Positions 2,461 through 57,927 of a DNA stretch of 64,000 bases are shown one piece after another. The DNA is taken from the NCBI GenBank assembly GCA_023974075.1, contig CM043797.1:28475523-28539522 (forward strand), in the 5' to 3' direction. Position 1 is the first letter of the stretch. The number at the start of each line of letters is the position of its first letter. Both the position numbers and the translations under genes were made by a program. The stretch is from Chaenocephalus aceratus (lineage: Eukaryota; Chordata; Actinopteri; Perciformes; Channichthyidae). A model generated the notes under the pieces. That model had not been told where the DNA came from. It searched no databases and saw only the letters and a list, made by a program, of their open reading frames with translations.

Positions 2461-5694
<3,234 letters not shown>

Positions 5695-6344
5695 CTTTGA
5701 GAAGGTGGCTAAAGGTCTATTAGGAGAGCAGATGGCAGGACCTCTAGGCTCTCTCCTCTAATGGGCTTGGCAGTGAGTCTGTCATCTTTAGACTGTTTTT
5801 TACTAAAGCATACAGTTCACACACAAACATGTGTACTGTAGCCATGGAGAATATACAAAAGGCTCAATATACGACATAACTCTTGGTTGTATAAGAAAGG
5901 TTCGGTCTGCCTCACAGTTTTCAAAATACATTTTAATAGGCCTGTTTGGAAAGAATATTGACAAGTAAAACTTATGTATTATTCGAACAAAAATAATTGT
6001 CATTTATTTGTTTTAGTCAAAATGTTTTAGTAACAATTTCATCCCTGGCCTTTGAAAACACTGTTTTTGTAAAATTGGTACCATTTTGTTAGGGGGACTC
6101 TTTAAAAAGGGTTAGAAAAGCAAAACAAATAGATAGAAAAACCAATATTGAACTTGCTCATAGGCCATATTGCATTAGTAAACGACAGGAAAGACATAGA
6201 AACCTACGAGTTGTTCTTATTTATGTCTTCAAACTGATTTATAAAGCAGGGGTGGATGACTTATTCATTTAAAATAAATGTTTCATCTTTAAAAAGAGAC
6301 AAATATTAGAAGCTGGTATCTTAAAACCTGTGCCAGTGTCTAAG

Positions 6345-6870
6345 ACCCCATTTACACACAAACGCATACGAAACGCAAACGAACCGATTACGATATAGAA
6401 AAAATATCTTCCGATCATACGAGACCGCTCGAAAGCGCTGGAGACGCTGTGGTACATATGCCGGGGCTGTAAGTGGCGCTCTACTTCCGCCACAAAATAC
6501 ACCAAAAGCAGTGAAGAAGACCCCCGAACATGGTTGCCATGGTTGCCCTTCTGTTTATGCCCTGCGGTGGATTTAGCAACATGTAGTTCATGTAATTCTC
6601 CATGTCCACTTGTTGCTGATGGTTGTGGTAGAGGAGCTGAGAGGCGGGGCTATGGCTTCATCATTATCAGGAAATGATCGTATAGGGCGTACACACGGAG
6701 CTGTTTGCCCCCCCAGAGCGTTCCGTTTGCAGATCTATCCACCTTGGGACCCGTTATCGTTTGCGGGGTCCGTTTCCGCGTTTCCGTTACGGCCTCGTGT
6801 GAACGAATGGGCTATACGAAAGAGAAAAGTAGCGGATACAACCGTTTGCGTTCTCGTGTAAACAGCACCA
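6345..6870. mobile_element. Non-autonomous TIR element
   Basis: The left end TTTACACACAAACGCATACG (6351-6370) pairs with the right end, whose reverse complement is TTTACACGAGAACGCAAACG (ending near 6863). The interior has further CG-rich subterminal matches (AACGCAAACGAACCG against its counterpart). No transposase is visible. The segment 6421-6500 is closely related to part of another element at 52993-53067. Exact ends and target duplication were not resolved. Confidence 0.55.
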
Positions 6871-8355
6871 AAGTGATCCTGAGTTAAACAGTGTTAAAAA
6901 CAGTGTCAATTTCTTTATTTGCCAACATCAAGTGACCCTTTAGAACCAAAAATATCTCTCGTGCTTTGATGGTATTTCAAAGTCTATTCAAATGTGTTTC
7001 TGCACAGCTCTGGGTCGACTGTCACAATCTGACAGCAAATGTCTGGCAAACCAAAAGTGGCTTACACAGCGTTGGTGCACTCTTAGATTAACTCAACAAA
7101 CTCTGCTCTGCAGTCATTAGATGTGACAGGAGGTAAGTGTGCTGACGGTCCAATTTCCTGATTTGTGCTAAAAGATGGTGCAAAATTAATGAATTAAGAG
7201 ACATGCAACTAGCAAGTGTGCGTGTTTCTGGGGGGCTTGTCTTTCTAGCTTTGTGAGGACCAGTTTAAGCTTTAGGTATCAAGAGTGATAATGTTTTTTG
7301 GCATAATTTAGCTGGTTCTCATAAGACTTTATTTAGGGGTTTAACAAAAACAATGGTTCACACAATCTGGGTTTAATTTAGTTGTTCAACTAATCTAAAG
7401 TGCTACGATCTCGGACAAATAGCCCACAGATTTTAAATGTTTTTGCCAGATCAAAAGGGAGTAAAGCCGTAATGTTGCTAATAATCTCTCATTGCAAAGG
7501 AAAATCTTAAATGTGCATTACTACAGAAAATATGGTAGGTCAAAGTTGAACCAGGAAGTTGTTAATTAAAGAGACACTTGGGTAATTTTGACTTCAAGAC
7601 TTGTTGGACTAACATTGTGTAATTTGCTGCGTTGGAAATATTTTCTCCCACATTCCTGCAATTACTTTGGTGAGTACAATGTTAACTTAATTGAGTGAAT
7701 TGATGAGGAAATTACAACCTAAAGGTTTCCTTGGAGAATTCCTGAATAAGGTCAATGTTTTGGGAACACAGTTTTGGGAATAATCATTTTGTGTAAGGAT
7801 TACATTAAAAGGACAATGCAAAATGTCAATAAGGGTCCTCAAGTAAGAAAGTACACACTGTTTTGATTCACTGTTTTTAAACTCATAAACCAACTAAAAG
7901 ATACTTAGTAAAATACTTGTTTTTCTTCAGGTTAACTGTGTTCAGTTGTTCATTCAGCACTCTGTAGACTAGACCATGGAAATATGATCTGTACAATTCT
8001 ACACTGTAGCAACCAGAATCATATATTTTGATTTTAGTGAATGGTACGTTTAGAATGTCTGCTAACCTGTCAAAACTAATTCTCCATAATAAACTGATGC
8101 CATTACTAAGAGCATACATACACTTTGTAAGAAGTAATATTATATGCAATGATTAGATACATCTCAGTACGTATTTTCTCAAAAGCAAGCATGCGGAATT
8201 GTTAAGTGAAGAGTTGCTAGTTCATTTTGAGGTCCTGCTTGTTATGTCTTCATCCTGTGACTGATGGTGTATGAAAAGAAGTCTGTGCATGTCAATTATA
8301 TCAAGTTTTGTGCAATGGGAAACGACTGAAGAGATTTCTTTGGGTCCTCTCACTA
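6871..8355. other. No gene seen
   Basis: AT-rich sequence with only short random open frames. No repeat or RNA gene is recognised. Confidence 0.5.
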
Positions 8356-8871
8356 TTATGTCTTCTCTGGCGTGAGTTTGTTGGTGGAGAAGAGAATGAC
8401 GAAGATGAAGTGTAGATTTACGCCGGTCCTCTCTGTTTGCGTGTCAGCTGCATTGAGGTTTGCTCCTCCATTAGAGGCACAGTGCTTAGACCTAAACTCA
8501 TATCCATAGTGACGTGCAGCTCTAGGGGAAATGCTGTAACCCAATCCCAAAGAGTTTGTTGTGCATTTATGAGTTTCAACACAGATGGTAAGGACTTGCG
8601 CAGAGGCTTTATCTCTTCTTTTTCCAGACGATCCACACCCCCTCAATCTGATTTGTTTGTGGCTGTATTCCTTTGTGTTACACCGCAACATATCGCTGTC
8701 CTGATTTGTGTGAAATGTTCTTAGTTTCCCATTCTGCCTTCTCCACTGCTGCTCCGTGCAGGCTTTACGGATCCAATCACAGTAACATGACACCAGAAAA
8801 GAGGCAGAGAGATATTTGATGGTGTGATGAGACTCTTCACAGATTGAATCATTAACACCACTCAGTTCCAT
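8356..8871 (-). other. Unidentified open reading frame, 171 codons, low confidence
   Basis: This is an ATG-initiated 171-codon frame on the minus strand, and a second overlapping frame (8418-8636) stays open for 72 codons. The protein is Lys/Arg/His-rich with scattered Cys. I recognise no domain, signal peptide or membrane segment. It lies just downstream of the TUNAR-like ORFs on the same strand, so it could be part of the 3' untranslated region or a downstream exon of that transcript. It could also be a decayed repeat or a chance frame. I would not treat it as a protein gene without transcript or conservation data. Confidence 0.15.
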
Positions 8872-9261
8872 GTCTCTGGTTTTTTTTATAACATCAATAA
8901 GTCTGTAGAATAAACAGAATAACTTTAAGAAATGGCAGTCATTTATCAGGTGTTTTGGTCAAATCCTGATAGAGGTATACATTTGAAAGAAATACAAGTG
9001 AAAGTTAACAACTCATCATGCACATATGAGAACGATCACAATATAGAAAAACACCAACTGTAGGATACACATTTAAAAAAAAGGTAAATAATTAATGTGT
9101 ATTTCTATTATATCTGTTCTTGAAAAGTACTACAAATGTTAACCACAGTGTGCTTAGGTACAATATATACAGATGTGGTTGAACTGTGTACTCTATGGTA
9201 CTGGTGCTGTTAGGTGTGGCAAGATTATCTCATAACTGAATATGTGTTTAGGAATATATTT

Positions 9262-9384
9262 TTAAGTGGAGGTGTATAAGTAGACAAAGAGGAGGAGCAC
9301 GAGGTTGAGTACGATGCCAATGACACCCAGCACAGCCAGGAATCTCTCCTCTGGGGTGCTCAGGTGAGGACACATCAGGTCCAT
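9262..9384 (-). CDS. TUNAR-like single-pass microprotein (40 aa), tandem relative of tunar
   Basis: On the minus strand an ATG at 9384 opens 40 codons ending in TAA at 9262-9264. The product has a short polar head (MDLMCPHLSTPEER) followed by a hydrophobic segment of about 22 residues and the tail FVYLYTST. From the EER motif onward it aligns without gaps to the tunar ORF 0.8 kb upstream: 17 of 28 positions are identical, including EER, LA, LG, IG, LNL, FVY and YT. The remaining differences are mostly conservative (I/V/L). TUNAR-type proteins are tiny ER membrane proteins reported to interact with SERCA calcium pumps; by similarity this would be a second such regulin. The start context is moderate (G at +4, T at -3). 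An acceptor-like CAG just before the AGGAGAG codons means the ORF could instead be a spliced last exon joined to an upstream start. Confidence 0.6.
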   Translation of the reverse strand: MDLMCPHLSTPEERFLAVLGVIGIVLNLVLLLFVYLYTST

Positions 9385-9424
9385 GTAAAACGTTTACAGT
9401 CACTACTAAGTACAGAAAATAGTA

Positions 9425-9430
9425 TTTATT
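9425..9430 (-). terminator. AATAAA hexamer between the two TUNAR-type ORFs
   Basis: The plus strand reads TTTATT here, i.e. AATAAA on the coding strand. It lies about 760 nt after the tunar stop and about 40 nt before the second ORF. If used, it would end the tunar transcript before the second ORF. AT-rich DNA gives such hexamers by chance, so this is weak evidence. Confidence 0.25.
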
Positions 9431-10188
9431 AATGTGTGCGAGTGATTATCTGTATAGTTGTATAAAGGTTCTATTCAAGTATATTTAAGGGTTCTCACAA
9501 GTATATTGGCTTCAATTCCTCCGTTAATAGTTTACTTGGCAGTTTTGTTCGCTTTTAACCATGCGTATATTGTAAAGATATCTCCCTAACCACTCAATTT
9601 GTCAAGTTAACTCAAATGTGCATTGTTTGTCAAACCATTTAGATATATTTAAGTGACAGTGATACAATCCTAAATGTCAGAGTAGCTTGATTGTCAAAAG
9701 ACACACTTTAACATGTTAAGTCACAAAACAGAAGATATTTGGACAGAACACAGTCAAATATGATCACCATCAGACCGAAGACAGTTTGGCCCAGTTATAT
9801 AAATACAGATACATGTGACCATAACCAGAATGGACACCAGTCTTTACACATATACATTTGGGTAATTGGCCTGAAAAAAATTGGAAATGCAGTTAAAGAA
9901 TCGAAGCTGTGTGAGTGTGCATATAACTCCACCTGCAGCTATACTGCTCTGTGATTGGCAGCAGGCTTAAGCTAACAAAGCAGAGCTGTCTGAAGAGATA
10001 AGCAGTGATGCGGCTCTCGATAAATATGGCTTCTATCCAGCTTAACACACTGACAATGATCCTCACATCGTACTGCTCACTCTGAATAATCAAACCCTCT
10101 TTAGTATATAAATAAAGAGGAGGACGGCAGGAAAGAGAAGAGTGAGGGACAGGTCCAACAGCTCTCGTTCAAGTTCTTGTCGAAAAGC

Positions 10189-10347
10189 TTAGGTGACAGT
10201 GGTGTATATGTAGACAAAAATGACCACTAAAAGGTTGAGGATGGTCCCTATGATGCCCAGCATGGCTAAAATTCTCTCCTCGCGGTCGTTCTGGGGGTCT
10301 TCCTCTCTAGCGTGAGTGCTGCAGACGTAGCGGCTGCCGGGGACCAT
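10189..10347 (-). CDS. tunar: TUNAR microprotein (52 aa)
   Basis: The minus-strand ORF encodes a small single-pass membrane protein. It has a charged head (HAREEDPQNDREER), a hydrophobic helix containing ILAMLGIIGTILNLLVVI, and the tail FVYIYTTVT. The block LAMLGIIGTILNL...IFVYIYTT matches what I know of the 48-residue human TUNAR/BNLN microprotein almost residue for residue. That protein sits in the ER membrane, binds SERCA2 and tunes calcium during neural differentiation; the zebrafish locus was first described as the lncRNA megamind. I chose the ATG at 10347 because it lies in an ideal ACCATGG context. An in-frame ATG three codons upstream (10356) has a weaker context and would give 55 residues. 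The coding region lies wholly in one exon, whose likely acceptor (a pyrimidine-rich run then CCAG) places its 5' edge at 10387. TUNAR and HHIPL1 are both on human 14q32, consistent with old linkage. Confidence 0.85.
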   Translation of the reverse strand: MVPGSRYVCSTHAREEDPQNDREERILAMLGIIGTILNLLVVIFVYIYTTVT

Positions 10348-10387
10348 GGTTACCATCAAAGAACCCCACCCCCACAGGGCGTGACGC
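10348..10387 (-). other. tunar: Probable 5' part of the tunar coding exon (untranslated)
   Basis: On the minus strand a tract reading TCTGTCTCCATATCCAG precedes position 10387 and is a credible 3' splice site. The short stretch between it and the ATG would be 5' untranslated sequence. Upstream non-coding exons must lie at higher coordinates, but I could not place them. Confidence 0.4.
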
Positions 10388-11228
10388 CTGGATATGGAGA
10401 CAGACAAAGTTGACATTAAACAGAGGTCTGGTAAAAAAAGATATGCAGAAGAGAATGAAACATGTTCAGTATTTATGAGTAGCTGAAAAACGATCCCTCT
10501 CTTTCCCAAACACTTGCACACAAACGTCTTTTTAGTTCCAAAGATGTCCCTGCATTCATCTGAGCATTGCATATTAACAAAACATTTAGTCAGTGAATAA
10601 TTAGATTAAATGTTCATTGTGTTTTCTGATCACTTCTTTAACCATTGACCAAATTACAACTCCAACTGGTTCAAGACAAAACCCATGTGACAACATCCTG
10701 GAGTATCTTTTAACTGTACCTTTTTCAATAGATAAATACTATTCAATCGCTATTGATGATGTAAATGTCCTACTAGTCTTTAGTCTCTACTTTCTCTCTA
10801 CATACTTAACCTTCCTCTGTTAGTGGTGGTGTGATCAGTGGTGTCTGTTAAAAATTAATGAAGTTCGAAGCTGATTGGTGTATTATGTGCTGTGCTCTGT
10901 GACAGTTTGGGAGCGAACAGAGATAGCGAGGTTAGGATGAGGACTCTGAACGTGTGTGTATTTATATCTCTTTTTGTGCTAAAATAAGAACATCTCCTGG
11001 GCTTTCCACCGGATGTGAGATTTCCACTACACTGAACTCTTCACATTTAGGCCCACTAGTCAGTTACCTTGGCTAATTTTGTCAACTAGTGCATCATCTG
11101 TTTTTTTAATCTGCTTGTGCCAGGATCATAAGTGCAAAAGTTGTATAAAACAGAGACAGACAAACACAAAACCATATTTCTATCACCAGTAACGTAAAGC
11201 GGCATCTTTGTGAAGTGACGACCCCTTG
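10388..11228. other. No coding feature resolved upstream of tunar
   Basis: Upstream non-coding exons of tunar could be here, but no splice-bounded unit is convincing. The sequence is unique-looking. Confidence 0.4.
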
Positions 11229-11261
11229 TTAGCTGGAACGGCTCGTGTGTGTGTGTGTGTG

Positions 11262-11708
<447 letters not shown>

Positions 11709-12360
11709 TTTGATGCAGTTTAGCCATTCAACAGTGTAACATGATTACTTCCAACCCAATTAGAGGGAATGCATGGCACACCTCAACATTTAGGGCTGTA
11801 TGTAAATAAAATATAGAGAAGATGACAAAACAAAGGGGAAATCCAATAGAGGAAATATCATATGTACGTTCAGATGTTGACTATGACTGCCAGTGGTGTT
11901 ATAATGAAGGTATGCTATAACAGTTTAACATGCTTTTTACAATATAAGAGGATTGGTTACTGTAAACTGTGAATTGGATTGTCGTTATATTTTCACTCTT
12001 TGTAGGTGTGGGCGAAAACAGTTGGCCACTAGATTTTCTCCAATTAATCCATAGCATGAAACTGAACCCCTCCAATGTTGAGTTCCACAGCAGCCAAGGA
12101 CACAACCCTTTAAAGACAAAACTGCAGGTCAAGTTTTATTGCGTACTTTAAGTTGACCAAAAGCAAAACACTCTACAGAAAATAAACTGCTTCCAAATAA
12201 TGTATGTGGATTGCAGCAGGATTTTAGATCAACAGATTTGTATTTTTCACTTGCCTTTAAACAGTCTACTATGACCTTGTGACATTTGCTTTTGTTAAGG
12301 TTTTCTTAAATTATAATGTTGTGTGCTTGTACTTATTTGACTTGAAGGTTGAGGTTGAAT

Positions 12361-13533
12361 TAGGGCTGTGCGATTATGGCAAAAATCATAATCACGATTA
12401 TTTGGGTCAATAATTGATATCACGATTATTTTGACGATTATTCATTGACCATTTATTGAACTTTAAAACAAATAATATTTTACCAATAAACAAGATCAAC
12501 AAATATGTTGGAGCGCACTTCCAAAACCATACTAAACATATATTATTAATATGATAAATAAAAATAAATTAGACCAAAATAAATTAAATCAAATATGTTG
12601 CAGTGCACTGTCACAACCTACTGAAAACTCCTTAACATATAGCCAACATTTTGGTAAAACATATTCAACATATTCCACTCAGTTAAACGTTGAAGGCTGG
12701 CCAACCGTCATGGTCCAGAAGTAACAGGAAATAAATGTTGAACTACAATTTAAGACCAAATAAAAATGTTTAGGCCACCATGGCAAATGCTGGGAGGGCT
12801 GCTCATGTCATCTCTTAAAGATGTTTTGCAAGAAACACCAGCCTGTTTACATGGTCTGGTTTCAGAGATGAGCGCAGGCAGGTGACAATATTGCCACCTG
12901 TACTGAAGACCCTCAGCCACGCCCCGACACATGGGGTGACGCCGGCCAATCACAAAGCTTTGATGCGTTCAAGTGCATTATTCTGGCACAGGACATTAAC
13001 GATAAAACAGAATATTGTTGTTCTATTTTTAGACACATCTCGCGATCGACTGGTTGGGCACCCCAGGGCTAGACCATAGGTCCGTTGTGGTCGCAAAGTA
13101 GTCAGCTGAAGCCACATCTCTCTCAACTTCCCCACGGCATTTGTCATATAGTGCAGGCAGCGCAGACCTGCTGAAATAATACCGAGACGGCATCGCGTAA
13201 CGCTTGTCCAACGTGTTGACAAGCTGCTTAAAGCCCTGGTTGCTAACAGTGCTAACTGGGCACATATCTTTAGCGATGTGAAATGTAATGGCAAAGTACT
13301 TAGTGGAAATAGTTTTACCCTTCTTTTTAACGAGTTGCTGCTCTTGTTCTGACATCTTCGCTCGCGCTGAACACTCACAACACATGTCACTCCCACGTGG
13401 CCGAGTGGGCTTTTAGGGAGGGGCGAAAGCACACCCAGCAAAATAATCGTATTTTGTCAATTATGCTGTTTTCATAATCGTCGCAAACCATAATCGTAAT
13501 TGTGATTAAAATACGATTAATTGCACAGCCCTA
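12361..13533. mobile_element. hAT transposon, internally deleted, with 8-bp target duplication
   Basis: The element starts TAGGGCTGTGCGATTA and ends with the matching TTAATTGCACAGCCCTA. It is flanked by an exact 8-bp duplication GGTTGAAT (12353-12360 and 13534-13541), the hallmark of hAT insertion. Subterminal regions are full of ATAATCG/CGATTAT motifs in both orientations, likely transposase-binding repeats. The interior retains part of a transposase gene on the minus strand. Confidence 0.92.
13029..13385 (-). pseudogene. hAT (ZBED-type) transposase N-terminal fragment
   Basis: 118 open codons encode a segment with VNTLDKRYAMPSRYYFS, an ALYDKC motif and YFATTTDLWSS. This is the pattern upstream of and including the first catalytic aspartate of hAT transposases (TTD-W-S). 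The RNase-H-like core and the dimerisation domain downstream are missing, so the copy cannot move itself. Confidence 0.75.

Positions 13534-31801: not shown

Positions 31802-57927
<26,126 letters not shown>

Follow-up and report, generated by a model that had tools for sequence, protein, structure and literature searches.

We identified two TUNAR-family open reading frames, ORF1 and ORF2, on the minus strand of the window (the whole 64,000-nt stretch of Chaenocephalus aceratus DNA analysed here). ORF1 (10189..10356) encodes a paralogue of what we call class B of the family (Pfam PF21954, E 1.7e-17), and its best named relative among the matches listed is the Nerophis 'protein TUNAR-like' (93%). 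An earlier note on this DNA had given ORF1 52 codons, which is what the ATG at 10347 (context ACCATGG) opens, but an in-frame ATG 9 nt upstream, at 10356, opens 55. ORF2 (9262..9384) reads from 9384 to 9262, starts in a weak context (T at -3), and comprises 40 codons plus a stop, as previously described; it encodes the 40-aa TUNAR-family microprotein MDLMCPHLSTPEERFLAVLGVIGIVLNLVLLLFVYLYTST, with ten homologous clusters and a predicted helix at residues 11-39. Its residues 12-39 align to positions 20-47 of the 48-position PF21954 profile with a score of 38.1 bits (E 1.5e-9) against a cut-off of 27; both ORFs exceed the Pfam TUNAR cut-off, in agreement with the earlier description of a TUNAR-type pair, and ORF2 lies downstream of ORF1 across a gap of 804 nt, close to the 0.8 kb originally given.

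The two ORFs share 17 identical residues from EER to the YT tail, the number first reported, but the span is 27 residues and not 28. Their local alignment scores 100, whereas the maximum in 5000 within-segment shuffles was 55 (0/5000 reached 100), and the next-best of the 2802 ORFs in the window after this pair scores 41. A family HMM trained on 127 database relatives of both ORFs recovers the two with E values of 6e-32 and 2e-17 and nothing else in the window below 0.65; a third TUNAR-like copy, sought in the window with this HMM, was not found. On the shuffle scores, the Pfam matches and the family HMM we rejected chance similarity. At the DNA level the ORFs are 70% identical over an ungapped 94 nt inside the coding part, and an ungapped search of their flanks gave no comparable match; with similarity down to 70% and located within coding sequence, the copy is old. 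The 27 aligned codons differ 10, 1, and 11 times at codon positions 1, 2, and 3, and the NG86 estimates between the paralogues are dN 0.19 and dS 1.14 (only 27 codons). A hydrophobic helix under constraint would be expected to give this pattern, though it is read from few codons in a comparison of paralogues.

Upstream of the ORF pair, on the same strand, are hedgehog-interacting-protein-like exons (31805-42324 and 56322-56681). They include an SRCR domain (31805-32731), a match to HHIP structures (40915-41307, 4e-15), a folate-receptor-like stretch (41800-42324, below the cut-off), and an HHIP-like part recognised by eye only, with no Pfam matches (56322-56681), all on the minus strand. In human, HHIPL1 and TUNAR are both on 14q32. 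Between the HHIP-like exons, a threonine-rich minus-strand frame (34118-34648) ends in a hydrophobic tail followed by a stop, and is perhaps an alternative C-terminus. The window also holds inverted repeats of about 427 nt (42964-43390 and 49936-50361, 99-100% complementary), which enclose an open LINE-type frame of 1096 aa (43623-46910) with endonuclease and reverse-transcriptase domains. Minus-strand fragments of hAT-type transposase and LINE character were noted by eye at 12953-13456 and 1637-2484; a Pfam scan of 12953-13456 and 1637-2284 gave no matches. Neither ARAGORN, run with bacterial settings, nor Rfam, searched at its gathering cut-offs, gave a hit in the window.

We scored potential splice acceptors with an ad hoc splice-site matrix, and give percentiles among 7875 AG sites. 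The likely acceptor of the ORF1 exon (10388..10409, minus strand, AG ending at 10388) is at the 99.4th percentile, and a second AG near this exon, at 10428, is at the 99.0th. Just upstream of ORF2, at 9406..9427 on the minus strand, is a candidate acceptor that reaches only the 87.6th percentile; its AG ends at 9406 and is twinned by one ending at 9403, and the ORF2 start follows without an intervening ATG. Three AGs outscore it: 9871 (99.2), 9990 (98.3), and 9351 inside ORF2 (96.6 percentile); nine ATGs separate the AG at 9871 from ORF2. Because of these stronger AGs, models other than an alternative last exon are possible. In three of the related clusters described below (P0001, P0002, and P0007), the upstream extensions can encode a pyrimidine tract and an AG 9-27 nt before the ATG, a reading that is degenerate and has no chance control. 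An AATAAA at 9425..9430 (minus strand; a pattern match in a scan of 5500-12500) could serve as the poly(A) signal for ORF1 transcripts, and the next ones downstream are an AATAAA at 7333 and an ATTAAA at 7377. Taken together, the acceptors and this AATAAA are compatible with alternative last exons.

A protein search with ORF2 returned seven clusters with 79-90% identity over 98-100% of the query, all seven with the TUNAR Pfam label; a profile search, which scored 7980 candidates sharing most words, added P0128, P0129, and the more distant P0130, giving ten ORF2-type clusters in all. The precomputed PF21954 label is present on all ten. Their sources are marked lgn (which we take to be Logan assemblies of sequence archives), ENA, or JGI, where P0130 is a 'hypothetical protein'. 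An NCBI, UniRef, or nr name is found on none of the ten in the database searched, and the suggestion that the second ORF is undescribed thus holds there, with no annotation label on any cluster. The clusters are most likely from fish, given their likeness and given that, in their ORF1-type partners (P0024, P0031, and P0017), 43-48 of 49 positions agree with Perca and Poecilia proteins.

Loss of the 40-codon frame in relatives had been named in advance as evidence against ORF2; the frame is intact and its distinct head is kept in the ten clusters, which retain the start, head, helix, and a stop 2 or 3 residues past YT. M-[DE]-L and S-[ST]-P-E-E-R-F are kept in all 11 ORF2-type sequences (including that of the window), and over the 55 pairs identity averages 0.72 in the head (minimum 0.36) and 0.89 in the core (minimum 0.74). 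As a stand-in for a dN/dS test we used the step in conservation at the ATG, comparing the long in-frame extensions of three clusters with each other and with the frame upstream of ORF2 in the window, where stops occur just before the ATG. Upstream of the ATG only 1-4 of 17-26 positions agree (six pairs), while the head and core are conserved, so that constraint begins at the ORF2 ATG. Across the window and the three sets linked by equal contig size, the ORF2 core is kept almost as well as that of ORF1 (23-27 versus 25-27 of 27 positions). From these comparisons ORF2, a conserved and unlabelled microprotein ORF, is almost certainly a coding sequence, and very probably specifies a genuine gene product that forms a new branch of the TUNAR family.

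The tandem arrangement is probably shared beyond the window, as suggested by linkage read from longest contigs of equal size. In three of the ten ORF2-type clusters, against 0.09 expected (10 against 32 clusters), the longest contig is identical in size to that of an ORF1-type cluster: P0001/P0024 (4511), P0002/P0031 (2028), and P0128/P0017 (4646). P0005 equals the canonical TUNAR cluster P0063, and not a class-B one, at a longest contig of 2475 (0.04 expected, 14 clusters), which may be a coincidence or a second linkage; the remaining six have no equal-sized longest contig among the clusters listed. By reading, the predicted proteins of three ORF1-type clusters (P0010, P0017, and P0031) extend upstream through an apparent pyrimidine-rich splice acceptor. 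The contigs therefore appear to be genomic, and are uninformative on transcription.

To place ORF2 within the family we analysed 149 sequences (147 database proteins, which include the best 120 of 208 matches from one search, and the two ORFs), and assigned classes by patterns of our own making before any tree was built. Class A, the canonical TUNAR (KESKEE...TTL), accounts for 65 of the 149; class B, the ORF1 type, for 56; class C, with MGTTxxxIEEV-like heads, for 16; and class D, the ORF2 type, for 11; one lamprey protein falls outside classes A-D. Class C (P0132-P0147) is named in Anguilla, Dallia, Menidia, and other teleosts, and forms a clade with 97/93 support. In the shark Heptranchias there is one A protein, on a contig of 87.3 Mb, and one B protein, on a contig of 17.1 Mb, and named B-type proteins occur in sturgeon, newt, Xenopus, and teleosts. 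TUNAR is therefore not single-copy, contrary to what the earlier note stated: A and B coexist in Heptranchias, B-type proteins also occur in sturgeon and amphibians, and teleosts have class C. By pattern and tree, class B looks like an old paralogue separate from canonical TUNAR, with the shark proteins grouped with class B at only 81/77 support. TUNAR is treated as one vertebrate-conserved microprotein in a paper in whose main text the word paralog is absent (PMC8758570). Our literature search, which covered few subscription papers, found no paper on TUNAR-like or TUNAR paralogues in teleosts, and a scan of viral contigs gave 60 pattern matches and no relatives.

In a first tree, of the 51 distinct cores from the 149 sequences, class D is a single clade (100/100) on a long stem of 0.55 changes per column. 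Its mean core identity is 0.69 to B, 0.61 to A, and 0.62 to C. Class D joins class B at 81/77 in this tree, and B+D receives 90/77 in a tree of 50 rows, so B is the class closest to D by both core identity and tree. We then compared topologies on 30 columns and those 50 rows, with P0130 left out: keeping B without D gave p 0.513 and a slightly higher likelihood, A+D gave p 0.375, and C+D p 0.391. B without D is thus as good a fit, neither A+D nor C+D is rejected, and we set the tree aside as proof of ORF2's descent from class B. Because the tree leaves other parents possible, descent from the neighbour rests mainly on adjacency; ORF2 probably arose by tandem duplication of ORF1's class-B lineage at this locus.

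The ORF2 peptide is predicted to be a single membrane helix, at about residues 11-39, with a short head. AlphaFold2 (from an alignment of 8) models one helix at 11-39 with a pLDDT of 84.8 overall, 55 over residues 1-10, and at least 90 in 24 of the 40 residues; the maximum 19-residue hydropathy is 2.99, at residue 16. S/T-P-E-E is a textbook helix N-cap, and the conserved S/T-P-E-E of ORF2 could in addition be phosphorylated by a proline-directed kinase or by CK2. Mammalian TUNAR is described as an ER membrane microprotein that binds SERCA2 and accelerates the clearance of calcium, probably by way of this pump; under the name BNLN, in islet beta cells, it is reported to interact with SERCA3, with reuptake lowered at high glucose (PMC8758570). 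As far as that source extends, SERCA binding is reported for mammalian TUNAR only (PMC8758570). By analogy through the shared helix face, a SERCA-type calcium pump is an even bet as the target of ORF2.

We suggest the following explanation, to which as a whole (a duplicate terminal exon, an alternative last exon, and a SERCA-binding microprotein) we give a probability of about 0.5. ORF2 would stem from a local duplication, in a fish ancestor, of the terminal coding exon of a class-B TUNAR paralogue, and would be expressed as an alternative last exon sharing the upstream exon of ORF1; transcripts would either use the ORF1 acceptor together with the AATAAA at 9430, or be spliced to the ORF2 acceptor near 9406. 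The peptide would insert in the ER membrane with its S/T-P-E-E head motif capping the helix, and would bind a SERCA-type pump via the shared LG-IG-LNL-FVY-YT face, while the exchanged head would alter its regulation or its partner. The alternative-last-exon route, taken by itself and from sequence signals, has in our judgement as much for it as against it. It is also conceivable, though we put this forward quite tentatively, that tandem terminal exons under one promoter yield, by splice and poly(A) choice, two calcium-pump-tuning microproteins that have one helix in common but exchanged heads, one activating and the other opposing, with the conserved S/T-P head of the second as a possible phosphorylation switch.

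The most serious competitor is that the whole gene was duplicated in tandem, so that ORF2 belongs to a separate gene that has a promoter and a 5′ exon to itself. The head of ORF2 is distinct, the flanks of the two ORFs are unmatched in the ungapped search, and the strong acceptor at 9871 could be part of an independent exon arrangement; but the ORFs are just 804 nt apart, and because the gap is that small the promoter and first exon would need to lie in the spacer or upstream of ORF1. We therefore regard a separate gene as possible but clearly the less likely arrangement. Still less probable is a single bicistronic mRNA spanning ORF1 and ORF2, in the manner of Drosophila sloth1/sloth2 or Sarcolamban. 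Related smORFs do share one transcript in Drosophila (PMC9681215), and the AATAAA past ORF2, at 7333, could terminate such an mRNA; but the AATAAA at 9430 could terminate a first mRNA ahead of ORF2, and the spacer here (9385..10188, minus strand) runs to 804 nt with 11 ATGs, unfavourable to bicistronic translation, versus GCAAA between sloth1 and sloth2 (PMC9681215). We set the bicistronic mRNA aside as the main model on this distance and the 11 intervening ATGs. That ORF2 is an untranslated pseudo-exon with residual similarity would fit the lack of an annotation label on the ORF2-type clusters, but ten clusters keep the start, head, helix, and stop while the upstream frame has diverged, and the 70% DNA similarity to ORF1 is confined to the coding part; we consider this very improbable.

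The TUNAR family thus has at least four classes. One of them, the ORF2 class, bears no label from NCBI, UniRef, or nr, and ORF2 is short enough to be missed by routine gene calling. If ORF2 is expressed, studies of fish 'tunar' must reckon with paralogues, and a pair of peptides with the same helix and different heads would be a natural experiment on which part of the peptide determines pump choice and the sign of the effect.

Among known systems, the regulins (PLN, SLN, MLN, ELN, and ALN) resemble ORF2 only in proposed function, as single-helix ER-membrane peptides. The TUNAR paper gives xLFxxF as the regulin motif and has TUNAR itself without LFxxF (PMC8758570). By reading, LFxxF is likewise missing from all 11 ORF2-type sequences (0/11), and the term regulin-like, used previously for these peptides, is only a loose fit. 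Sloth1/Sloth2 and Sarcolamban of Drosophila, compared by description only, are likewise paired paralogous microproteins at one locus, but are reportedly made from one mRNA (PMC9681215). The class-B 'protein TUNAR-like' adjoins ORF2 in the window and shares with it the EER core start and a mean core identity of 69%, whereas the ORF2 type has IGI for IGT and LLLV or VLLL for LVVI, and forms its own long-stem clade. With canonical TUNAR (pTUNAR/BNLN; PF21954, class A), ORF2 shares the C-terminal single helix, the LG-IG-LNL-FVY-YT pattern, and a similar size (40 vs 48 aa); it is 8 aa shorter, its core identity averages 61% over 27 residues, and it carries the head MDLxCPHLSTP in contrast to the charged KESKEE head of class A.
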